A DNA stretch of 64,000 nucleotides. Source: a virus. Under the pieces are notes generated by a model. The model did not search any database. It was not told the DNA's origin and was given only the letters and a program-made list of their open reading frames with translations. This document shows, piece by piece, positions 28,909 through 60,258 of this stretch (position 1 is the first letter of the stretch; every line of letters begins with the position of its first letter). Where the stretch lies: positions 158,830 through 222,829 of IMG/VR virus record IMGVR_UViG_3300009184_000029; one strand, given 5' to 3'. Position numbers and translations under genes: made by a program.

Positions 28909-31086
28909 ATGGCAACATATTCGATATCAGTAACAGGGGATTGTAGTAACACAAATAATGGGGTGTTTAATTTAAATATTGACCCAGGTTCAGGACCTTA
29001 TTTAGTGTCTTGGACAGGTAATATTTTTTCACCACAAACCACCTCTCAAAATTATGTCCAAACAGGACTTAGTGCTGGAAGTTATTCAATAACAATCACA
29101 GACTCTTCATTACCTGTTAATATAGTTACAGGTCCTATTTTATTCTACATTTCATCTGGATTTAGTTTAAATGTTTCAAATGTTATTGATACAACATGTT
29201 CAATATCAAACGGTTCTATAACATTGAATTCTAGTTCAAATTACGGAAATACTAATGCTGATTTATATTTTACAAATGAAAACGGTATAACTAACAGATT
29301 ACAAACAATAAAATTAAGTCAATTAGATTATACTGTTAGTAATTTAAGTAACGGAACTTATTATTTTAGAGGTGTTGACGAAGGAGGTTGTATTTGTAAC
29401 AGTCAAACTGCTATTGTTAGAAATTCATCTAATTTTGATTTTGGTTTATTTGTTGTTGATACTAATAGTTGTGGTACAGACTCAGGTAAACTTTATGTAA
29501 CAGGGTTAACAGGTACTCCACCATTCACATACCAATGGGTAGGAGCGTCAAATATTCAACAGACTACAGACTATGCAACTGGGTTAACTCAGGGTTTTTA
29601 TACTTGTACTATTGAAGATTCTACAGGGTGTGTCACTTCTAGAAGTGCTACCATATCATTATTAAGTCCAATGTCGTTAAGTAATTACACTATTGAAACA
29701 CCAACATGTGTTGGTAATGATGGTTCATTAACTGTTTATTTAAATGGAGGAACACCACCATATTATTGTTTATTATCAAATGGTGAGGTTATTACAACTT
29801 TAAACACTGGTATAACTTTTAATAACCTTGTATCAACCACATACCAGTTAGAGATTACGGATGCGACTTTATGTAAATTAAATTTAACTATTCCTGTAAT
29901 TTCACCTAACTCATTTAATGTTTATTCGGTAAGTACTACAAATTCAAATTGTTCGTATAGAGATGGTAAAATAAGTATTTTAATGCAAGATGGAATACCT
30001 CCTTATACTGCGACAATTACTAAAAATAACGGGGATACCCAAACTTTAGTAACATACCAAAGTGATATTACTTTCCAGGGTCTTGAATCGGGTACTTATG
30101 ATTTAAATATTTCCGATAGTTTATCATTATGTTCTTATTCAAGTGGATATACTATAGATAATGTTACAGAATTTACATCAGTATTAAGTACAACTGGAGC
30201 GACTTGTAGTAATGATAATGGGGTTTTAAGGGTACAAACAACACCATCAACTACTGCAACAACTTACTACAATTACACGTTAAATAACGGATTTTCTAGT
30301 GGACCAACATATGTGACGGATTACTATTTCACAGGATTAAGTGTTGGAAATTATACATTGGCAGTTCAGAATTCAAATAATTGTATTGAATCTTATGATT
30401 TTGCAATTTCCCAAGGAAACACCGCACCAAATATAACTTTATTATCAACAGGATGTGGTACAGGTAGTGGTGGTACTATTTCTCTTATTATTGATGGAGG
30501 TCAGTATCCTTATACTATCGAATGGGGTACTAATATTAGTGGACAAACAGGTACTTTTATAACTGGATTAACTGCTGATTTTTATGAGGTTACTGTGACA
30601 GATGCTAATGGATGTCAAGACTATTCATCTACTGAAATAGTATGTGCTCAAAGAGTTGCGTCATCACAAAGTATTAATGTTGGAGGTATTGTTAGTAAAA
30701 CTACAAAAACTAATGGACTTACAATTTATAAAATGTTGTCACAAACATTTGCAACTTCGATATCTAACGCTGAAAATTGTATTTTAACCGCGACCACATT
30801 TACGGCTAAAGCAGTTTTGGATAGTATTGAATATACTAAAGAATTCTATAATGGTACTTCGATAGATGACTATCCTAGCGATGAATTGTGGGAAACGATT
30901 ACTGAAACTTTATTATCATCAGTTTACGGTGTGGCGTCTGTTGATATTGATATTGTGACAAATAGTGTTGTAATTACAAGTGAACAAGTTGGGGGGGTTG
31001 ATGTACTTGCAAATAAAACTTTATATTATTATTTAACCATAGATTGTGAATCTTCTTGTCAATTTTCAGGAGGAACAAGTTGTTAA
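28909..31086 (+). CDS. Adhesin-like virion protein with about seven SprB-type repeats (725 aa)
   Basis: About seven tandem units of roughly 80-90 residues cover residues 1-585. Each has the pattern C-x-N/D-x-G-x-[IL]-x-[VL] ... G-G-x-P-P-[YF]-x-x-x-W ... L-x-x-G-x-Y-x-[VL]-x-[VI]-x-D-x-x-x-C; examples are 'NGGTPPYYCLLSNGE' and 'YEVTVTDANGCQDY'. This is the SprB repeat described in Bacteroidota gliding-motility adhesins. The C-terminal 140 residues form a different domain ending in a Cys-rich tip ('CESSCQFSGGTSC'). It follows the large baseplate protein by one base, so it is most likely a tail-fibre or tail-tip adhesin. Confidence 0.75.
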   Translation: MATYSISVTGDCSNTNNGVFNLNIDPGSGPYLVSWTGNIFSPQTTSQNYVQTGLSAGSYSITITDSSLPVNIVTGPILFYISSGFSLNVSNVIDTTCSISNGSITLNSSSNYGNTNADLYFTNENGITNRLQTIKLSQLDYTVSNLSNGTYYFRGVDEGGCICNSQTAIVRNSSNFDFGLFVVDTNSCGTDSGKLYVTGLTGTPPFTYQWVGASNIQQTTDYATGLTQGFYTCTIEDSTGCVTSRSATISLLSPMSLSNYTIETPTCVGNDGSLTVYLNGGTPPYYCLLSNGEVITTLNTGITFNNLVSTTYQLEITDATLCKLNLTIPVISPNSFNVYSVSTTNSNCSYRDGKISILMQDGIPPYTATITKNNGDTQTLVTYQSDITFQGLESGTYDLNISDSLSLCSYSSGYTIDNVTEFTSVLSTTGATCSNDNGVLRVQTTPSTTATTYYNYTLNNGFSSGPTYVTDYYFTGLSVGNYTLAVQNSNNCIESYDFAISQGNTAPNITLLSTGCGTGSGGTISLIIDGGQYPYTIEWGTNISGQTGTFITGLTADFYEVTVTDANGCQDYSSTEIVCAQRVASSQSINVGGIVSKTTKTNGLTIYKMLSQTFATSISNAENCILTATTFTAKAVLDSIEYTKEFYNGTSIDDYPSDELWETITETLLSSVYGVASVDIDIVTNSVVITSEQVGGVDVLANKTLYYYLTIDCESSCQFSGGTSC

Positions 31087-31090
31087 TTAA

Positions 31091-32068
31091 ATGAGAAGTA
31101 TTACTCTAAATAGCGTAAATGGTACACCACCATATAGGATTTTCGCATGTGATTCATCGGAAACCGATTGTACATTAGTTTATTATACCGAAAATTCAAT
31201 TCCACCATCGGTTGAAATACCGATACCAACAAAGTACTCAACCGCCCCATCAGTTAGAATAAAAGTGTATAATACTGACGGGTGTATTTTAATTGAGGAT
31301 TTTAATTGTGTCACACCAACTCCAACACCTACACCTACAATTACTCCAACAATACCTCCTACACCGTCAATGACACCGTCAATGACTCCAACTATATCTT
31401 TAACACCTTCAAATACCCCAACAATTTCTATTACACCGTCAATAACTCCTTCTACAACAGTAACACCTACTGTAACCAATACCCCGACACCAAGTTCGTT
31501 ACCTGAAACTCCCCAAGCTTATTTGTTTATTGAACCATTTAGTGCTTCCTCAAGTATAGGTAATTATATGTACAACAATGGTTCAACAGGGTTTTACGGA
31601 TTTACAAATGCTACTAAACCTAGTTCATCATCTTCGGCCTTTACATTAGAGATGAATCTTTATTGTAGTTATTCAGGGTGGACAAATGGGGAATTACCTG
31701 CAATTGTTAAATCACAAATACCTCAGGCAACATCTGGGTTTGATTCTTTGGGTAATCCAATAATTTCATATAATTTTCAAACAGTACAAATACCACCTGA
31801 TAGTGTTTTAGATAATGCTTGGTATACATGGATAATACCACCGGCATATACTAATAACCAATACCAACTTGAAATCGGGTTGAGTGACAATAACCCAAAT
31901 ATTTTTACAAGTGTTTACACTGAACCAACCATATATTCAAATAGTTTCTATTATTCAGGTGGAACAATTGCTCAATATACTTACCGAGTTTATACTTCTT
32001 ACCCTGACCCAACGTTTAGAATAAATAACAATACCGTTCTTTATTTTAAAGGAAGTGAGGTAGGGTAA
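31091..32068 (+). CDS. Modular fibre protein: small Cys domain, Thr-Pro linker, beta domain (325 aa)
   Basis: Residues 1-73 form a small domain shared with two other proteins in the window ('VNGTPPYRIFACDSSETDC', ending in a Cys). Residues about 75-140 are a Thr-Pro/Ser-Pro linker (TPTPTP..., SMTPSMTP). The C-terminal domain of about 185 residues is beta-type and Tyr-rich. The knob-linker-domain layout suggests an extended receptor-binding accessory fibre. It is the second in a row of adhesin-like genes. No enzymatic motif seen. Confidence 0.65.
   Translation: MRSITLNSVNGTPPYRIFACDSSETDCTLVYYTENSIPPSVEIPIPTKYSTAPSVRIKVYNTDGCILIEDFNCVTPTPTPTPTITPTIPPTPSMTPSMTPTISLTPSNTPTISITPSITPSTTVTPTVTNTPTPSSLPETPQAYLFIEPFSASSSIGNYMYNNGSTGFYGFTNATKPSSSSSAFTLEMNLYCSYSGWTNGELPAIVKSQIPQATSGFDSLGNPIISYNFQTVQIPPDSVLDNAWYTWIIPPAYTNNQYQLEIGLSDNNPNIFTSVYTEPTIYSNSFYYSGGTIAQYTYRVYTSYPDPTFRINNNTVLYFKGSEVG
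31312..31500 (+). repeat. Thr-Pro-coding low-complexity repeat
   Basis: DNA reads as imperfect tandem units of the type acacc(g/t)tcaat/act or ccaacacctac. It encodes the Pro-Thr/Ser linker of the fibre protein. Related tracts lie in four neighbouring genes, giving sites for slippage or homologous exchange. Confidence 0.7.
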
Positions 32069-32080
32069 TAATTATAGTAT

Positions 32081-32923
32081 ATGTCATTTGTTTATAAAAA
32101 TCCACTAACCGCCATTGTAACACAAGGACCCCAAAGTGTTAAAAGAACACAAACTTTTGGTAATTCTTATAGTGTTAATAATATTGGTGGATACATGGAG
32201 GTGTATACTTTAAACGATTTAGTATACACTATCCCGTCAGGTACGACAGGTATTGTAGAATATTCGGGAAATACCATACCTGTTGATTTTTATAAAGGTA
32301 ATGGTAACCCATGGTCATATAATGTTTTAAGTTTAGGTTCTGATAATATTTCTTCGGGTAGAAGAAGACTTGGTATGTTAGTTTATGTTTATGAACAAGA
32401 CCAAGTTTATCAGTTTCATATTAGCGGTTACACTTCTTTATGGACAGCAGCGACTGCTAGTACTAACTGTGTTAATATTTCTGATTTTGGTACCACGATT
32501 AAAAATAATACTGTTGCAGGTCAAAATTTTATTAACGCTTGGACTGCTAGTACTATTGAGGATGTTAGTGGATACACAAGTGAAACTGCGGTTTGGAGAA
32601 AGTTTAGTACTGGGAATAGTAGTGGGGGAACGGGAATTACTGGGTCAGGTACCACAGGATATATTCCAAAATGGAATTCCAGCTCAAGTCTAACAAACAG
32701 TTTAATCCGAGATAATGGAACCACAGTATCCATAGGCTCCCCATCAAGTGTTGCCGCCATACTTGAGGTAGCCTCAACGTCACAAGGGGTTTTATTCCCT
32801 AGAATGACACAATCGCAAAGATTGGCAATTAGTTCACCAACCCCTGGTTTAATTGTTTATCAAACTGATAGTACTGACGGGTTATATATTTATAAAGTTG
32901 GAGGATGGATACAAATAATATAA
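32081..32923 (+). CDS. Tail fibre protein with Bacteroidota-type C-terminal tip (280 aa)
   Basis: The C-terminal 95 residues carry the widespread Bacteroidota fibre signature: 'GYIPKWNSSSSLTNSLI' then 'GVLFPRMTQSQRLAI' and 'PGLIVYQTDSTDGLYIYK'. Such tips occur on phage fibres and surface proteins of this phylum. The N-terminal 185 residues form a separate beta domain, possibly attaching to the virion. Located within the adhesin gene series; likely host recognition. Confidence 0.7.
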   Translation: MSFVYKNPLTAIVTQGPQSVKRTQTFGNSYSVNNIGGYMEVYTLNDLVYTIPSGTTGIVEYSGNTIPVDFYKGNGNPWSYNVLSLGSDNISSGRRRLGMLVYVYEQDQVYQFHISGYTSLWTAATASTNCVNISDFGTTIKNNTVAGQNFINAWTASTIEDVSGYTSETAVWRKFSTGNSSGGTGITGSGTTGYIPKWNSSSSLTNSLIRDNGTTVSIGSPSSVAAILEVASTSQGVLFPRMTQSQRLAISSPTPGLIVYQTDSTDGLYIYKVGGWIQII

Positions 32924-32924
32924 T

Positions 32925-34352
32925 ATGGCAGGAATTTTAACTATAAATAATATAACAGGGATACCACCGTATCAGATATACGTTTGTGATATAAATGGTA
33001 ATAATTGTCAATTAACAACTTACGACCAAGACCCAGTTTATTTACCAATATTGGTCCAAATACCTGATGAGTTTTCAGGTATTGATAATATTTTTATAAA
33101 AATAATTGATGGTAATAATTGTGAGGAAAGACAAGTCTTTGTTTGTCCAACACATACTCCAACACCTTCAGTTACCCAAACCCCAAATGTTACACAAACG
33201 TTAACAAGAACACCAACACCTTCAGTTACTAATACTAATACGCCAACAGTTACCCAAACACCAACTAAAACATCAACTAATACACCCACCCCAACCAAAA
33301 CTCCGACACAAACTCCGACTAATACTCAGACACCTACAAATTCAAACACACCTACAAATACTCCAACCCCAACAGTTACGAAAACATCAACTAACACTCC
33401 CACTCCATCAATAACTGCTACGAGAACACCGACAAGGACAATGACTAAAACCCCATCACCAACTCCTTCGGGAATTGTCACCTGTCTTACGTTGAATAAT
33501 TATTATAATGGTTTTGATTGTTACTATGGTGTATATAATTCAGTTAATGATAAATTAATTCTATCTGAGACAAATAGTGGTTCCACTTACATCGTAAATG
33601 CATCAACTTTAACAATCGACTCAACTATATTAACTTTGGATTCATTCAAGATGTCTTATAACCCTAATACTAACGTAACTGCGGTAATTGAACAAACTAA
33701 TAATATGATTTATATTATTTCAGGTACAAGTACTGCGTCCACAATATCTATAATTGGACCAAGAGGGGTCGCTTTTAATACTACTGATAATAATTTACAT
33801 GTTGCGAAAGGAAATCAAGTTAATATCTATAACACATCATTTAGCTTAATTAATACATATTTTGCCGATAATCTTGAGTATGACCTAACCTATAATTCTA
33901 CCGATAATACAATGTATATCTGTAACTTTAATAGTAATAATGTATCTGTTTTTGATTGTTCTCTAAGTTCTGTAACGGCTACAATATCTGTTGGAACTAA
34001 TCCGTCAAGATTAACTTACTACCCTAACGGTAACAAAGTCTATGTAATTAATGATGGTGACGATACTATATCTGTGATTGATTGCGGGACTAATACCGTG
34101 ACCAGTACTATTACTTTTACATTAGGCCCATTTGAAGATTTAGTTGATTTGATTTGTATAAATTCTCTAAACAAAATAATTGTGACTGATGGGTCAGGGC
34201 AAAATCTTTATGAAGTTAATGCAACTACAGACACCATAATATGTTCAACATCCACATTCCCAAGTTCTGCGAGAGGTATTGTATACGACAGTCTAAGAGG
34301 ATATACTTATGTTTTAGATAATTCCATGGCAAGACTCAATCAATATATTTAA
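32925..34352 (+). CDS. Modular adhesin: Cys domain, Thr-Pro linker, YVTN-type beta-propeller (475 aa)
   Basis: Residues 1-75 are the same small module as in the gene at 31091 ('INNITGIPPYQIYVCDINGNNC'). Residues about 76-182 are a long Thr-Pro linker. Residues about 185-475 contain repeated blades such as 'YNSTDNTMYICNFNSNNVSV', then 'SVGTNPSRLTYYPNGNKVYV' and 'ISVIDCGTNTVTSTI'. These match the YVTN/NHL-like beta-propeller of surface-layer proteins. A propeller at the end of a flexible stalk suggests ligand binding. It starts one base after the upstream fibre stop. Confidence 0.7.
   Translation: MAGILTINNITGIPPYQIYVCDINGNNCQLTTYDQDPVYLPILVQIPDEFSGIDNIFIKIIDGNNCEERQVFVCPTHTPTPSVTQTPNVTQTLTRTPTPSVTNTNTPTVTQTPTKTSTNTPTPTKTPTQTPTNTQTPTNSNTPTNTPTPTVTKTSTNTPTPSITATRTPTRTMTKTPSPTPSGIVTCLTLNNYYNGFDCYYGVYNSVNDKLILSETNSGSTYIVNASTLTIDSTILTLDSFKMSYNPNTNVTAVIEQTNNMIYIISGTSTASTISIIGPRGVAFNTTDNNLHVAKGNQVNIYNTSFSLINTYFADNLEYDLTYNSTDNTMYICNFNSNNVSVFDCSLSSVTATISVGTNPSRLTYYPNGNKVYVINDGDDTISVIDCGTNTVTSTITFTLGPFEDLVDLICINSLNKIIVTDGSGQNLYEVNATTDTIICSTSTFPSSARGIVYDSLRGYTYVLDNSMARLNQYI
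33148..33475 (+). repeat. Thr-Pro-coding low-complexity repeat (longest copy)
   Basis: About 330 bases of imperfect acc-cca/act-ccg units encoding roughly 105 residues of (Asn/Lys/Val)-Thr-Pro-Thr repeats. It separates the Cys module from the beta-propeller. Confidence 0.7.
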
Positions 34353-34417
34353 TATTCAGAAATATATTTATTTTAATATATTTTCTTACAAAATGATTCC
34401 TCAATTATTTATATAAT

Positions 34418-36439
34418 ATGACTTGGTATTTTAAGGATTGTAACTCAGATTATTATTATTCGTTTAGTAATCAGTCTTCATTTGAAGGTTCGTTAGTTGA
34501 AGGTAATGTTTATGCGATTACTACCACAGATTTGGTGGTAATATGTACAACTGCTCAAAATATAGATTCGATACCGACTTATTTAATTAACACTGAAACA
34601 ATCCAAGATATAATTTTAATTGACGGAGATTGTACCACGTGTAATAACATATATGGTTTAGGGGTTACACCAACTCCAACGCCAACAATGACAAATACTC
34701 CAGGAGGTAGTCCGACCCCGACAAAAACGGCAACTCCAAGTCCGACACCAACGTATACTCCAACACCAACAGTTTCTCAAACACCTACCCAAACTCCAAC
34801 GATTACTGCAACACCTACCAAAACACCTACGAATACCCCAACGACAAGTATTACTCCGACACATACTCCAACTCCAAGTATTACAAGTACTCCATTCCCA
34901 ACACAAACCTCTCCGGTATACCCTGTTGTGACAGGAAATACTGAAGTTCTTAGTATTCTAACAATATTACCATTAACTGTTACTTGTTACCCAATTTCAC
35001 CATCTTATTATGGTGGAAGTGATGGTTCAGTTACTTTAGGAATTAATGGAGGGACTCCACCATACAATATAAGATGGTCCACAGGTGCTCAAGGAGTACA
35101 ACTTACAAATTTATCAGCGGGTACATATAGTGCTCAAGTTAGTGATTATTATAGTGATTTTACAACTTCAATAACTTGTACTGTAGAACAAGTAACACCA
35201 ACTCCTACACAGACGTTAACTCCTACGATAACACCAACACCATCATCTTATATACCAAAGTTTTGTTTATCATTCTTCTACTATGGAGATTACTACTATA
35301 TAAATTTTGAATTCAATGGAACTACAACGTATCCTATGGATTTAAAATGGATTTCAACAACGACAAATCTAACTTCATCAAAAGTTAACATAACATTTAA
35401 TACGACTAATTCAGTTTGGTCGACATCATCGTTTTATCCCGATTTGATTCCTGCTAATAATTTTGACCAAATAGAAATTAAGTTCACTGCTGAAGGTGGT
35501 AATTCTTATACAACTCCAGTAAATCTTAATTGGGTTACTTTGGGTATTATTGTTGATGATTTGATAATTAATGACAATTACCCATATGGTAAAGTATGTG
35601 ATGATAGTTATGATATTAAAATAACTAAAGTTGAAACATTCCCATCATGTTCAAATACGAATAACGGTAAAATTACAATATATACAAATAATGTTGTTGG
35701 AACCTTAGAGTATTCTATTAATTCATTAGACGGACCTTGGCAATCAAGTAATCCAATATTTTTTAATGTTACACCTGGAACATATTCAGTTGCAGCTAGA
35801 TTAGTTTCAAACACTGATAGTTACGAGATATATGACGGAGTGGTTGTTTCAACAGTACAATCCCCAAGTCTACAGACAAATATAACGGGTAGAGATATAT
35901 TTGTTAGAGGTAAAGTAGGTATGTCGGGAATTGAAACAGTTAAGAATTACACATTCCAAATTAATAATCAAATATCTAATTCAACATTAAGTAGTGTAAA
36001 TATAACTTTCAGTATTAGTACAGTATTAAAGGTTAATACTGATGTTGATAGTTATAATCCATATTTAATGATATCTAAACCATCGGTACAATTAGGTGAA
36101 GGTACATTACTGAATCCTATCGATAATACTTGGTATCAAACAACTATAGAGTCTGGATGTGAAAGTTTTGATAATAAATTAACCTCTTATACTGAAACAA
36201 TACAAACATATAAATACAATACTGATGTTTCAGTCAGTGATATTATTAGTGGTTCATTTAATTTAACATGGTTACAACCTGTTATAGAAAATTATAGTTT
36301 TGAAAACTATAAATGTTTCATAAAGAATGAATGGGATTTTCAGGTCCAAATTTTAAATGTTAGTTACCCATCAACATGTAAACCTGATAATATAAATAAT
36401 TCACCACTAAGGTTTACTGGTAACTATTATACAGGATAA
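34418..36439 (+). CDS. Modular adhesin: N-terminal Cys domain, two Thr-Pro linkers, SprB repeat (673 aa)
   Basis: Residues 1-84 form a small domain ending in '[12 protein letters not shown]'. Residues about 85-165 are a Thr-Pro linker. Residues about 180-260 contain one SprB-type repeat ('[20 protein letters not shown]' then '[12 protein letters not shown]'). A second short linker follows ([18 protein letters not shown]), then a 390-residue beta-rich region containing another SprB-like unit ('[11 protein letters not shown]', '[10 protein letters not shown]'). It is preceded by a 65-base A/T-rich gap. Likely a virion adhesin. Confidence 0.65.
34661..34915 (+). repeat. Thr-Pro-coding low-complexity repeat
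   Basis: Imperfect tandem acaccaac/tccaactccg-type units encoding the first Thr-Pro linker of the gene at 34418. The antisense frame is open, but only because of the repeat. Confidence 0.65.
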
Positions 36440-56762: not shown

Positions 56763-57683
56763 GTGGAAAATTATTATCAAGTTTTAGGGGTATCAGAAAA
56801 TGCAACTCAGGAAGAAATAAAGAAGGCATTTAAGGAAAAGTCTAAAATAACACATCCTGACAAAGGAGGTTCTGAAGAAGAATTCAAAAAAATTAATAAC
56901 GCATACTCAACATTGTCTGACCAAAATAAACGGAATGAATATGATATGAAACAAAAAAATCCTTTTGGGGGAGGTAACCCAAATGGGTTTAATCCATTCG
57001 ATGTATTCAACGATTTTTTCGGACAGAGACAAAGACCTCAAAGAAAAGTTAGAGATAGAATTATAAATCTTAGTATTGGTGTTTTAGATTGTTTAAGAGA
57101 GACTGAAAAAACAGTAAATTACCAAATAGAAAAAGATTGTAATAGTTGTAATGGTTCTGGAGGGGAAAGAGTTAATTGTGAACACTGTGGAGGGTCAGGA
57201 CATATTACACAACAAGTTGGCAACAGTTTCTTCAGTAACATAATTCAAACTCCATGTAACCAATGTGGGGGTAGAGGATTTAAACTAAAGAACCTGTGTT
57301 ATGTATGTAATGGGGTTGGTAAACAAAGAGAGTTTAAGACAACTAAATTCCAAATACCTAAAGATATACAGGATGGACAATTTATTAAATTATATGGTCA
57401 AGGAGACATCTCACAAGGACAGGCAGGGGACTTGTTAATTAAATTTGAAATGGCTCCACAAGATGGATTTGAAAGAATTAATAATGATTTAGTGTATAAT
57501 CATTTTTTCACGTCTATAGAAGATTTAAATAAGAGTGAAATTGTGGTTAATTCTTATAATGAGAAAATGAGTATTAAGTTGCCTAAAACTATAGATACCT
57601 CAGTACCATTAAGAGTTAAAAATAAAGGTATTTCAGGTGGGGATTTATTTATTAGAATGAACCTAAAGTTTGAAAGAACTTAG
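56763..57683 (+). CDS. dnaJ: DnaJ-type Hsp40 co-chaperone
   Basis: Stimulates DnaK ATPase and delivers clients. The J-domain is at residues 3-62 with His31-Pro32-Asp33. The Gly/Phe linker ('NPFGGGNPNGFNPFDVF') follows. All four zinc knuckles are present: Cys126 ('CNSCNGSG'), Cys139 ('CEHCGGSG'), Cys165 ('CNQCGGRG') and Cys179 ('CYVCNGVG'). A beta-rich client-binding domain ends the protein. Length is 306 aa against 376 in E. coli. The GTG start at 56763 is followed by M-E-N-Y-Y after initiation. A phage-encoded DnaJ probably redirects host DnaK to virion assembly or replication. Confidence 0.9.
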   Translation: MENYYQVLGVSENATQEEIKKAFKEKSKITHPDKGGSEEEFKKINNAYSTLSDQNKRNEYDMKQKNPFGGGNPNGFNPFDVFNDFFGQRQRPQRKVRDRIINLSIGVLDCLRETEKTVNYQIEKDCNSCNGSGGERVNCEHCGGSGHITQQVGNSFFSNIIQTPCNQCGGRGFKLKNLCYVCNGVGKQREFKTTKFQIPKDIQDGQFIKLYGQGDISQGQAGDLLIKFEMAPQDGFERINNDLVYNHFFTSIEDLNKSEIVVNSYNEKMSIKLPKTIDTSVPLRVKNKGISGGDLFIRMNLKFERT

Positions 57684-57822
57684 ATAGTTTTTCATAAATA
57701 AAAGTTGCAAATATATACGACGTATATATAACAGATATTAAAGTATAAAGGACCAATAGGGTCCTTTTTTTTGGGATAAAGAAAAAATCTTTACAAGATT
57801 CACACTTAAAGTCTAACTTCAT
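57652..57822 (-). CDS. Possible CxxC/membrane micro-protein (56 aa)
   Basis: An ATG at 57822 opens 56 codons: an N-terminal 'FKCESCKDFFFIPKKR' (CxxC knuckle, then basic) followed by a hydrophobic span 'TLLVLYTLISVIYTSYIFAT' and a basic end. A zinc knuckle plus membrane anchor is a common small-protein plan. It begins 17 bases inside the P-loop micro-ORF and ends 32 bases inside the dnaJ gene on the other strand. It also contains the dnaJ terminator in antisense. Real coding is uncertain. Confidence 0.35.
   Translation of the reverse strand: MKLDFKCESCKDFFFIPKKRTLLVLYTLISVIYTSYIFATFIYEKLSKFFQTLGSF
57711..57729. promoter_or_regulatory. 19-base near-perfect palindrome after dnaJ
   Basis: ATATATACG (57711-57719), one central A, then CGTATATAT (57721-57729): perfect 9-bp inverted repeat. 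It sits between the dnaJ stop and its terminator. The CG-centred core stands out in A/T-rich sequence, as for a dimeric repressor site, but no target gene is evident. Confidence 0.4.
57747..57772 (+). terminator. Rho-independent terminator after dnaJ
   Basis: AAAGGACC (57747-57754) pairs perfectly with GGTCCTTT (57760-57767), 5-base loop, followed by T-run. It lies 63 bases after the dnaJ stop and also overlaps the possible minus-strand micro-ORF 57652-57822. Confidence 0.8.
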
Positions 57823-57886
57823 AAATTAATGCATTTGCCAATGTTGTTTTGCCAGCACCTGGCTGACCTGTAAACCAATAAATCAT
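57806..57886 (-). pseudogene. APS-kinase-type P-loop micro-ORF (26 aa), probable truncated cysC-like gene
   Basis: The 26-residue frame is the start of a P-loop kinase: 'MIYWFTGQPGAGKTTLANAL' then 'IYEVRL' and a stop. 'WFTG.PGAGKTTLA' is the Walker A region of adenylylsulfate (APS) kinases. Everything after the P-loop is missing. Its ATG overlaps the sulfotransferase stop (ATGA at 57883-57886). APS kinase makes PAPS, the sulfate donor of sulfotransferases, so the neighbours fit. Most likely a 3'-deleted remnant; a functional short peptide is not excluded. Confidence 0.6.
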
Positions 57887-58707
57887 ATATTCTTTTGATA
57901 ATTAAAAATTTCGTAAAACCACTGATAATTGTTATAAATCCATTCAGTCACATCCGCACCCAAAACTTTATTCGCAGTTGATGGAGTTAATTCTAACGAC
58001 TTTCTAATTGTATGGTCACCAAACATTCCATAAACTTCATCATCTTCTTTAGTTACTTGTTCAATATTATCAAAGTCGTGATTAAAAAATGGAATACCCA
58101 AATATTCATATATCCTTGTCATTGTCATTTCAGGATATAAACATAAGTCTTCATATCGGATAAACAAAATTTTTTCATTTATTCCTTGTCTAAAAATTTC
58201 AGATAACCTCTCAATCGCCATTCCAACAGGTTGTGAGTTTGCCCAAATGTCAATTCTTTTTGGTGTTGATGTACCTTTCAGTTCGTTATGATTAACAATC
58301 CCAATATCTTTGTATTGATTTTTTCTAAAGTTCTTTTCCATTGAACAAAAGATATCACGTAAATCTCTAACCATACAAATGATTTTAGGTTCAGGAAATA
58401 TTTCATTTAAAAATCCATAATGAACTCCCCAACCTCTACTTTTATCCACAACATATTTTTTATCTGTAATTGTGTTGAAGAAACCTTCAACACCATTTTT
58501 ACAAAAAGACAAATAACCTTGTTTCATCAATTCAGTATCCTGAGCTTTAAATTCAGGTGATGTAGAATAGTTAGCCCTTGCAGCATAAATTAATTCCAAC
58601 ACACCACTTGTTGGTGTTGCATAAATGTCAGGATTTTGAGCCAATATGTTTTGTAACATTGTACTACCAGCTCTTGGTAATGAACTTTGAAAGAATAATT
58701 TTTCCAT
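57883..58707 (-). CDS. Sulfotransferase (PAPS-dependent family)
   Basis: Transfers sulfate from PAPS to an acceptor. The 5'-phosphosulfate loop is at residues 8-20 ('SSLPRAGSTMLQN', with Pro-Arg-x-Gly-Ser-Thr). The 3'-phosphate-binding region is 'KIICMVRDLRDIFCSM' (Arg114). A later family feature is 'FIRYEDLCLYPEMTMTRIYEYLGI'. Length of 274 aa is normal for the family. It starts in a one-base stop/start overlap with the SET gene and ends in ATGA coupling to the APS-kinase fragment. Substrate unknown; a surface glycan or fibre protein is inference. Confidence 0.85.
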   Translation of the reverse strand: MEKLFFQSSLPRAGSTMLQNILAQNPDIYATPTSGVLELIYAARANYSTSPEFKAQDTELMKQGYLSFCKNGVEGFFNTITDKKYVVDKSRGWGVHYGFLNEIFPEPKIICMVRDLRDIFCSMEKNFRKNQYKDIGIVNHNELKGTSTPKRIDIWANSQPVGMAIERLSEIFRQGINEKILFIRYEDLCLYPEMTMTRIYEYLGIPFFNHDFDNIEQVTKEDDEVYGMFGDHTIRKSLELTPSTANKVLGADVTEWIYNNYQWFYEIFNYQKNI

Positions 58708-59093
58708 TATATAATTTTTTTAACACTTTTCCAATAATCGGGTCCTCCATACGACGTACAGATTTCTTCACCCGCTTCAATAATACGATTTGACACGAAA
58801 TAATAAAGAGCACTACTTGAGTCGCAAGTCCAAAACGCATTATTATTTTCACTATGATTATAGATACATCCATAACCCAATGGAATGGCATAATGTGTTG
58901 GTTTATGACCACATGGATATGCAAATCTATATTTTAAAAATATATCATAATCTTGACCTAAATTAATTTTGAAGAATATTGCATAACAAACTTCAATAAT
59001 TTCATTAGGTTCAATTCGTTCAATAGCAAAAACCCCCAATCCATGAATTGGGGATGCTTTAACTTCTATCTTTTTAGGTATTGGGACATTCAT
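58707..59093 (-). CDS. SET-domain protein (putative lysine methyltransferase, 128 aa)
   Basis: A minimal SET domain. S-adenosylmethionine-binding N-terminal signature 'SPIHGLGVFAIERI' (residues 14-27), the central knot 'YNHSENNNAFW' (78-88, Asn-His-Ser) and the C-terminal 'AGEEICTSYGGPDYW' (107-121) are in the canonical order. At 128 aa it is as compact as viral SET proteins. It would methylate protein lysines. The target is unknown. It is coupled by one-base overlaps to the glycosyltransferase and sulfotransferase genes. Confidence 0.85.
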   Translation of the reverse strand: MNVPIPKKIEVKASPIHGLGVFAIERIEPNEIIEVCYAIFFKINLGQDYDIFLKYRFAYPCGHKPTHYAIPLGYGCIYNHSENNNAFWTCDSSSALYYFVSNRIIEAGEEICTSYGGPDYWKSVKKII

Positions 59094-59965
59094 TATTCTT
59101 CAGAAAGAGAATTGATAACATCATTTACATTAAAAATTTCATCTTCATTGAAATATGGAAATTCAATTGGTTCTCCCAAAATATTAAACTTATACAAATA
59201 TGAATTTTTTAATTCGGGTTTTTTAGTGAAAGGATTGTTAACGATATTATGATTGTTTTCATATCCAAATACTATGGGAGAATTTACAATCCATAAAACT
59301 GTTGAGTTAAGTCCTAATGCAGTTGCAGTATGTTGAGCAAAACTATCCATAAATAAACGCTTTGAACTCATCCCAATAACTGACGCAATCGCTCTGAAAT
59401 TATCTGTTATAGATACTGTATCTTTCAAAGATATTTGGTCTTCTCTTCTAATATGGAAAATGGTATAAGCAAATTTAAACTTATTAACAACTTGTTGAGC
59501 GATGTTATCAGGGATGTCTCTCGCCCAAGAGTATTTCAAATCTTGTTCAATACCTCCATTTGTTTGAATAACCATAATAGGTTTATCAGTTGCGTATTTA
59601 TTAGAATAAAATTTAAATTCTCTATCCGTTAAATAAACTTTTGGTTGTTCTCCTTCATACTCTAAACCGAACAATTTACACCAAGTTTCAATTACGTGTT
59701 CTTTTTGTGTTATATGTTCAGCTTCCAAGTAGGGGTCGTGAGCAAATAGTTTGAAATCTTTACCATCAATATAATCAGAATAGAAATATTTGTGTTCACC
59801 GAAAGCAAATGCTCGGTCCACAAAAGGATTATTCATAAACACATCAGGATATCCTGATACTACAATTAGATTACAATCAGGATATGTTTTTTTAATTACT
59901 TCGGCAACTGCGGTTGCGATTACACATTTACCAATACCACCATTTATTTGAAAAATAATATTCAT
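59093..59965 (-). CDS. GT9-like (heptosyltransferase-type) glycosyltransferase (290 aa)
   Basis: GT-B fold features: N-terminal 'MNIIFQINGGIGKCVIATAVAEVIKKTYPDCNLIVVSGYP' (G-G-x-G-K loop and following strand) and C-terminal domain with 'PIMVIQTNGGI' and 'MSSKRLFMDSFAQHTATALGLNSTVLW', like the sugar-nucleotide site of family 9. Typical GT9 enzymes are about 320-350 aa, so this is a short version. First gene of the minus-strand cassette (GT, SET, sulfotransferase). Substrate unknown; phage or host surface glycan is plausible. Confidence 0.75.
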   Translation of the reverse strand: MNIIFQINGGIGKCVIATAVAEVIKKTYPDCNLIVVSGYPDVFMNNPFVDRAFAFGEHKYFYSDYIDGKDFKLFAHDPYLEAEHITQKEHVIETWCKLFGLEYEGEQPKVYLTDREFKFYSNKYATDKPIMVIQTNGGIEQDLKYSWARDIPDNIAQQVVNKFKFAYTIFHIRREDQISLKDTVSITDNFRAIASVIGMSSKRLFMDSFAQHTATALGLNSTVLWIVNSPIVFGYENNHNIVNNPFTKKPELKNSYLYKFNILGEPIEFPYFNEDEIFNVNDVINSLSEE

Positions 59966-59998: not shown

Positions 59999-60025
59999 AT
60001 TATTGGTAAATAGAAATCCAATAAT
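59999..60025 (-). terminator. Weak hairpin after the 77-aa gene (minus strand)
   Basis: ATTATTGG (59999-60006) pairs with CCAATAAT (60018-60025) around an 11-base loop; read on the minus strand it is followed by A/T-rich sequence with a T-run further on. It lies at the stop codon of the 77-residue gene. Weak because the stem is short and A/T-rich. Confidence 0.35.
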
Positions 60026-60258
60026 TAAAAATAAATTTGACTAATAAAATCTTGAATTGACGATGTTATTTGACCGTCAAGAGTAAATTCACCATTTTGA
60101 AAGAAGTATAAACTATTCCCTAATTCAATCTCACAAGAATTATCACTATCTATATTGTACCCATTTTGATACATATCAAATGTAAAATAATGGTCTTGAT
60201 TATTAAAATTTAATCCGTTTGGTATTTTATTAATTTCTAGCATATTTTTAAATTTCAT
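60025..60258 (-). CDS. Small hypothetical protein after the fibre gene (77 aa)
   Basis: Asn/Asp-rich, beta-type soluble protein ('YFTFDMYQNGYNIDSDNSCEIELGNSLYFF'). No family recognised. The first ATG (60258) overlaps the fibre stop by 11 bases; a second ATG at 60243 avoids the overlap. Position behind a giant fibre gene suggests a fibre chaperone or cap, but this is inference. Confidence 0.5.
   Translation of the reverse strand: MKFKNMLEINKIPNGLNFNNQDHYFTFDMYQNGYNIDSDNSCEIELGNSLYFFQNGEFTLDGQITSSIQDFISQIYF

Follow-up and report, generated by a model that had tools for sequence, protein, structure and literature searches.

A conserved glycosyltransferase–sulfotransferase gene pair beside a phage repeat fibre gene: a candidate fibre-modification cassette

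What might a phage do with a glycosyltransferase, a SET-domain protein and a sulfotransferase that are encoded as one block next to a giant fibre gene? The question is raised by the right end of IMG/VR record IMGVR_UViG_3300009184_000029. Its final 64 kb (the window; the whole record, 222,829 bases, was also searched where stated) carry on the minus strand, in this order, a repeat fibre gene, a 77-residue open reading frame (ORF), a glycosyltransferase gene (GT), a SET gene and a sulfotransferase gene (ST). An earlier note on this DNA had proposed an operon that couples glycan transfer, lysine methylation and sulfation. The three ORFs have the order, strand and overlaps that it described: the GT/SET and SET/ST junctions both read TAATG, with one base shared, and ST shares the four bases ATGA with a fragment of an adenosine 5'-phosphosulfate (APS) kinase gene. 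The fibre gene, whose proximity the note had also seen, and the 77-residue ORF lie directly upstream on the same strand. With somewhat more confidence than doubt, we read the block as a fibre-modification cassette, in which GT would glycosylate the Ser/Thr-rich fibre and ST would sulfate the added sugar or fibre tyrosines. The basis for this reading is gene content, protein folds, motifs of the site for 3'-phosphoadenosine 5'-phosphosulfate (PAPS), conserved coupling, adjacency to the fibre gene and purifying selection.

IMG/VR was scanned with ST, which retrieved 40 loci, and separately with GT, which retrieved 67; nearly all are metagenomic contigs, and pattern scans of this kind favour near relatives. 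Almost every locus has GT and ST side by side, whichever scan fetched it, and ST lies within 1.5 kb of GT in 36 of the 39 dereplicated GT-scan loci. The GT–ST spacing is −1 to 7 bases in most loci, start/stop overlaps or gaps of 0–7 bases occur nearly throughout, and an intact APS kinase gene follows ST at −4 spacing (a 4-base overlap) in most. The 56 dereplicated GT loci overall contain ST (53), an APS kinase (43), a nucleotidyltransferase (37), a DUF2061 protein (37) and SET (6). A fibre gene, recognized by glycine-triplet (GGG) repeats rather than by structure, is nearby in 28 of the 33 GT-scan loci with enough flanking sequence to be assessed, and fibres homologous to that of the window directly border the cassette in relatives. 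In the collections searched, no cultured phage turned up with an intact fibre-GT-ST-APS kinase block; the host of such a phage is likely to be flavobacterial. Recurrence of the GT–ST arrangement in dozens of viral contigs places it beyond chance, and the conserved unit, judged from gene content, is GT plus ST and not GT, SET and ST. The proposed triple coupling therefore survives in part: adjacency of GT and ST beside a fibre gene recurs among relatives, contrary to the lack of co-occurrence that the note had named as refuting, but SET joins them only in the window's clade. Homologues of GT, SET and ST have dN/dS ratios (nonsynonymous to synonymous rates) of 0.03–0.21, rough values with dS near saturation in several pairs, which indicate that all three genes are under purifying selection.

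GT has no useful match among Pfam, NCBIfam or PDB sequence profiles, and fold comparison alone is informative. The AlphaFold2 model (mean predicted local distance difference test score, pLDDT, 88) finds as its best PDB matches in Foldseek the GT9 structure 3tov, WaaF, WaaC and TibC (E = 3.5e-13 for 3tov and 1.2e-11 for 1psw; template modelling scores 0.54–0.69), and has the two-domain GT-B architecture of the WaaC/WaaF type. The label 'GT9-like' given earlier is thus upheld by structure prediction but not by Pfam: none of 21 family members matches PF01075 at E ≤ 1, and the GT profile aligns with a PF01075-positive phage GT9 protein over 62 columns only (probability 65%). Conserved motifs of the family are GGIGK and DSFxQH; a Rossmann-type strand begins at residue 2, and there are no conserved CxxC pairs. 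TibC places heptose on serines of repeat adhesins (PMC4358343). It resembles GT in its GT9-like fold and in its setting, since its target is a Ser-rich repeat adhesin and GT adjoins a repeat fibre. The TibC/AAH (BAHT) family is defined by an N-terminal β-barrel and a four-cysteine iron finger (PMC4358343), whereas the 290-residue phage protein has neither, and the phage operon additionally holds a sulfotransferase. By analogy, TibC serves here as a working model for GT and not as a claim of family membership.

The identification of ST as a PAPS-type sulfotransferase, made in the earlier note, holds: the match to PF13469 (E = 1.4e-22; 81.5 bits against a curated cut-off of 27) is accompanied by intact 5'-phosphosulfate- and 3'-phosphate-binding motifs (5'-PSB and 3'-PB), with P-R-x-G-S-T (P11, R12, G14, S15, T16), R114 and S122 invariant. 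Profile and fold comparison (model pLDDT 87.5) alike single out the tyrosylprotein sulfotransferases TPST-1 and TPST-2 as the closest solved structures, with TPST-1 closest in fold, and the sole NCBIfam match is the Nod-factor sulfotransferase NoeE, under its cut-off. Phage sulfotransferases with the same domain have been reported with unclear function in OM43 phages and in Synechococcus phages S-SKS1, S-SRM01 and S-SCSM1 (PMC10580990). The Synechococcus proteins are ~30% identical to ST; no GT9-like partner of this GT family was found beside the sulfotransferases of either phage group.

The kinase that follows ST in relatives is an APS kinase by Pfam (E = 2.1e-17), NCBIfam and PDB profile. 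In the window, the ORF after ST begins MIYWFTGQPGAGKTTLANALI and then departs from APS-kinase sequence. This piece spans 26 residues and profile positions 1–25 of 152 (PF01583); 21 of 21 residues match the intact kinase of close relatives before the likeness stops, whereas in those relatives (ST 90% identical) APS-kinase sequence runs on for 141 residues. The P-loop fragment noticed earlier is therefore real, but it is a 26-codon remnant of a decayed gene.

For the nucleotidyltransferase (c4) that accompanies the kinase in many relatives, a role as a compact form of ATP sulfurylase was considered; by profile it matches nicotinamide mononucleotide (NMN) adenylyltransferases, making it NMNAT-like, and no such gene was found elsewhere in the 222.8 kb of this genome. 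The DUF2061 membrane protein is usually last in the cassette and overlaps the nucleotidyltransferase gene (e.g. L002:9639-10082). In six of the 56 loci (L010, 9261-11545; L067, 8117-10730; L069; L072; L073; L102) the APS kinase is followed, ahead of the nucleotidyltransferase gene, by a cupin, a HAD protein (five of the six) and then HldE-C-, HldE-N- and HldD-like genes. In NCBIfam, they match best the models for RfaE domain II (5e-26), RfaE domain I (3.6e-39) and ADP-heptose 6-epimerase (2.4e-49); the scores stay under the curated cut-offs, yet other models trail far behind. These six operons thus contain an apparent viral ADP-heptose pathway, and its presence in the same operon fits an ADP-heptose donor. 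Since the GT9-like protein of L010 is the sole recognized glycosyltransferase beside this gene set, the gene content favours ADP-heptose as the GT donor. Other loci have a GT25 protein or an FkbM methyltransferase in the accessory slots that separate GT, ST and APS kinase. As a group, these accessory genes suggest both the donor and a common theme of modification.

Relative to this genome, the cassette occupies three backbone positions among related phages: between homologues of 112.8 and 117.1 kb (L002/L004), near 191 kb (L005/L006/L009) and, in this phage itself, at 216.7 kb. The three differing positions indicate that the block has moved as a module, accompanied by fibre sequence in L005/L006 and here; the L005/L006 fibre has an N-terminus like that of the 190.9-kb protein and repeats like those of the window's fibre. 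These repeats are ~14 residues long (G-G-G-x-x-N-T-[AS]-S-G-x-Y-S-[FT]-[IV]) and contain 28 GGG triplets. One repeat position is Ser in 25 of 28 copies and another is Tyr in 16 of 28; the composition is 38% Ser+Thr+Asn, 1.7% Asp+Glu and 1.2% Lys (15 lysines in the part present). At the site where L002/L004 hold the GT-SET-ST cassette, this genome has a fibre-like gene of 1376 residues and, after it, two genes that look like glycosyltransferases (G000:C1:112915-119067; L118, outside the window).

SET is a genuine SET-domain protein, as first noted (PF00856, E = 2.5e-9; 37.9 bits against a cut-off of 22.4). The motifs GLGVFA, YNHS and SYG are intact, and N79, H80, S81, Y115 and G116 are invariant; the GxG, NHS and catalytic-Tyr motifs of SET methyltransferases are all present. 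It lies between GT and ST, with coupling kept, and the distribution marks it as an accessory insertion of one clade. The closest solved structure is vSET of PBCV-1 (1n3j and others; E = 2.2e-17), likewise a minimal SET domain that lacks a post-SET segment. vSET methylates H3K27 of its eukaryotic host, whereas SET resides in a phage of bacteria, where, to our knowledge, there is no histone H3 target. Methylation of fibre lysines by SET is only a guess. Co-occurrence of SET with lysine-rich fibres was ruled out, as fibres beside SET loci contain 0.4–2.0% Lys, the same range as those beside loci that lack it. Related genes occur in other settings. A phage-like contig in a Winogradskyella metagenome-assembled genome (L137; 489-1226, 5001-5396) encodes a SET protein 45% identical to that of the window and, a few kb upstream of it, an HldE-N-like kinase. 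Another phage SET gene (L051:5039-6387) has a 4-base overlap with a GDP-fucose-synthase-like epimerase gene, and in the 735-kb phage LR756501 (L046) SET is flanked by neighbours similar to those in L051.

In the fibre-modification model, GT would attach a sugar, most likely heptose, to serines and threonines of the neighbouring repeat fibre, much as the repeat adhesins TibA and AIDA-I receive heptose from TibC. ST would then use PAPS to sulfate either the attached sugar or tyrosines of the fibre. The APS kinase translated together with ST would top up PAPS in most relatives; this phage would have to draw PAPS from the host, because its own kinase is broken. SET, the accessory of one clade, probably serves to methylate a lysine, either in the fibre or in another phage protein assembled with it. 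What we infer is the donor sugar, the acceptor, the sequence in which the enzymes act and whatever part SET plays. Several observations weigh against this model. GT lacks the N-terminal Asp of GT9, and its GGIGK motif (K13 invariant) aligns with NGLGD of a genuine GT9 protein; ST lacks the catalytic Glu of its closest structural relatives, GEETR being aligned to TPTSG; the fibre offers few lysines to SET. Neither an intact APS kinase nor ADP-heptose genes were found in the 222.8 kb of this genome. Operon adjacency is also no proof that the fibre is the substrate, and host surface polymers are possible acceptors.

The last point leads to a distinctly unlikely alternative, in which a glycan or lipid of the host surface is the substrate, for serotype conversion or superinfection exclusion: GT would add a sugar to lipopolysaccharide (LPS) or capsule, ST would sulfate the product, and proximity to the fibre would reflect exchange of receptor-related modules. 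That the GT9 members WaaC and WaaF are LPS heptosyltransferases, that the sub-cut-off match of ST is to NoeE and that GT25, an LPS family, fills accessory slots in relatives are all consistent with this idea. Yet GT, ST and APS kinase form one translational unit beside the fibre gene, often with one small gene between, an arrangement to be expected if they are used along with the fibre, and a large phage that lacks recognized lysogeny genes would probably profit little from serotype conversion. Alternatively, ST could act independently of GT as a protein-tyrosine sulfotransferase on the recurrent Tyr-Ser motif of the fibre, in keeping with its nearest solved structures and with the frequent repeat tyrosine. 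We regard this as improbable: ST does not conserve the catalytic Glu of TPSTs, it is seldom distant from a GT, and TPSTs prefer acidic surroundings at the target tyrosine, which the fibre repeats do not provide.

Two further alternatives concern the kinase. The sulfur genes could be auxiliary metabolic genes of the 'cysC' type that feed assimilatory sulfate reduction in the host and are grouped by chance with unrelated enzymes, and the literature does treat viral cysC alongside this pathway. The arrangement makes this highly improbable, as the kinase gene overlaps that of a sulfotransferase, a direct consumer of PAPS, beside GT and a fibre gene; moreover, the kinase is lost here, whereas GT, SET and ST are retained and under selection in the clade. 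The loss itself could be artefactual if the junction of dnaJ with the truncated kinase is an assembly chimera and the kinase is intact in the real phage. A 30-base junction sequence occurs in no other viral contig, relatives have other genes after dnaJ, and the contig ends close by, inside a repeat gene. Against this, the terminator of dnaJ itself lies right at the junction, and the cassette is known to change sites, so true recombination is just as plausible; we consider a chimera unlikely, though a serious contender.

Viral cysC is usually interpreted as a sulfur-assimilation gene. The GT-ST-APS kinase block beside a fibre gene offers both phage sulfotransferases and viral cysC a concrete, testable role in fibre sulfation. 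If the model is correct, the fibre would be the first sulfated phage fibre, as far as the literature searched shows (no paper was found that brings together phages, sulfotransferases, tail fibres and glycosylation). A coat of charged sugars could change how the fibre binds its receptor, or protect the fibre. The SET insertion is a rare instance of a phage operon that holds a vSET-like enzyme, one that selection maintains. More broadly, and only tentatively, the loci may represent a widespread, mobile viral pathway that builds sulfated (hepto)glycans on tail fibres, with its own PAPS kinase in many lineages, an ADP-heptose route in some and an optional vSET-like lysine methyltransferase; some viral cysC genes would then belong to virion modification rather than sulfur assimilation. 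A close precedent is the glycosylation of mycobacteriophage virions (Freeman et al. 2023, cited in PMC12619734), where, as proposed here, phage-encoded glycosyltransferases place glycans on the phage's own structural proteins; as represented in that citing paper, the targets are capsid and tail tube and no sulfotransferase or PAPS supply is described.

Table 1. Features at the right end of the window (window coordinates)
Feature	Position	Strand	Remarks
GT, 290 aa	59093..59965	-	GT-B glycosyltransferase, GT9 (heptosyltransferase) fold
SET-domain protein, 128 aa	58707..59093	-	PF00856; accessory insertion between GT and ST
ST, 274 aa	57883..58707	-	PAPS-dependent sulfotransferase, PF13469
APS kinase (CysC) remnant	57806..57886	-	start, P-loop, 21 matching residues, then unrelated sequence and stop
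Repeat fibre protein, at least 1250 aa	60248..64000	-	runs off contig end; proposed substrate
77-aa ORF, between fibre and GT	60025..60258	-	96% identity in L009, same place
dnaJ, convergent neighbour outside cassette	56763..57683	+	
Intrinsic terminator of dnaJ	57747..57772	+	8-bp stem plus T run

A CxxC/membrane micro-protein (56 residues, 57652-57822) suggested in the earlier note was rejected as a gene because it overlaps the dnaJ 3' end and is antisense to it and to the strong dnaJ terminator; it also has no homologue. The 77-residue ORF has a weak match to phrog_25505. A search of Rfam with 56–64 kb of the window gave no matches, and no DNA-level relatives were found among GenBank phages. 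Further left in the window (28909-36439), several large tail proteins rich in Thr and Pro occur in a row and show weak matches to SprB repeats and β-propellers. Jumbo phages that bear dnaJ are described from Flavobacteria (PMC12619734), and this, together with the SprB repeats, suggests a host among the Bacteroidota.

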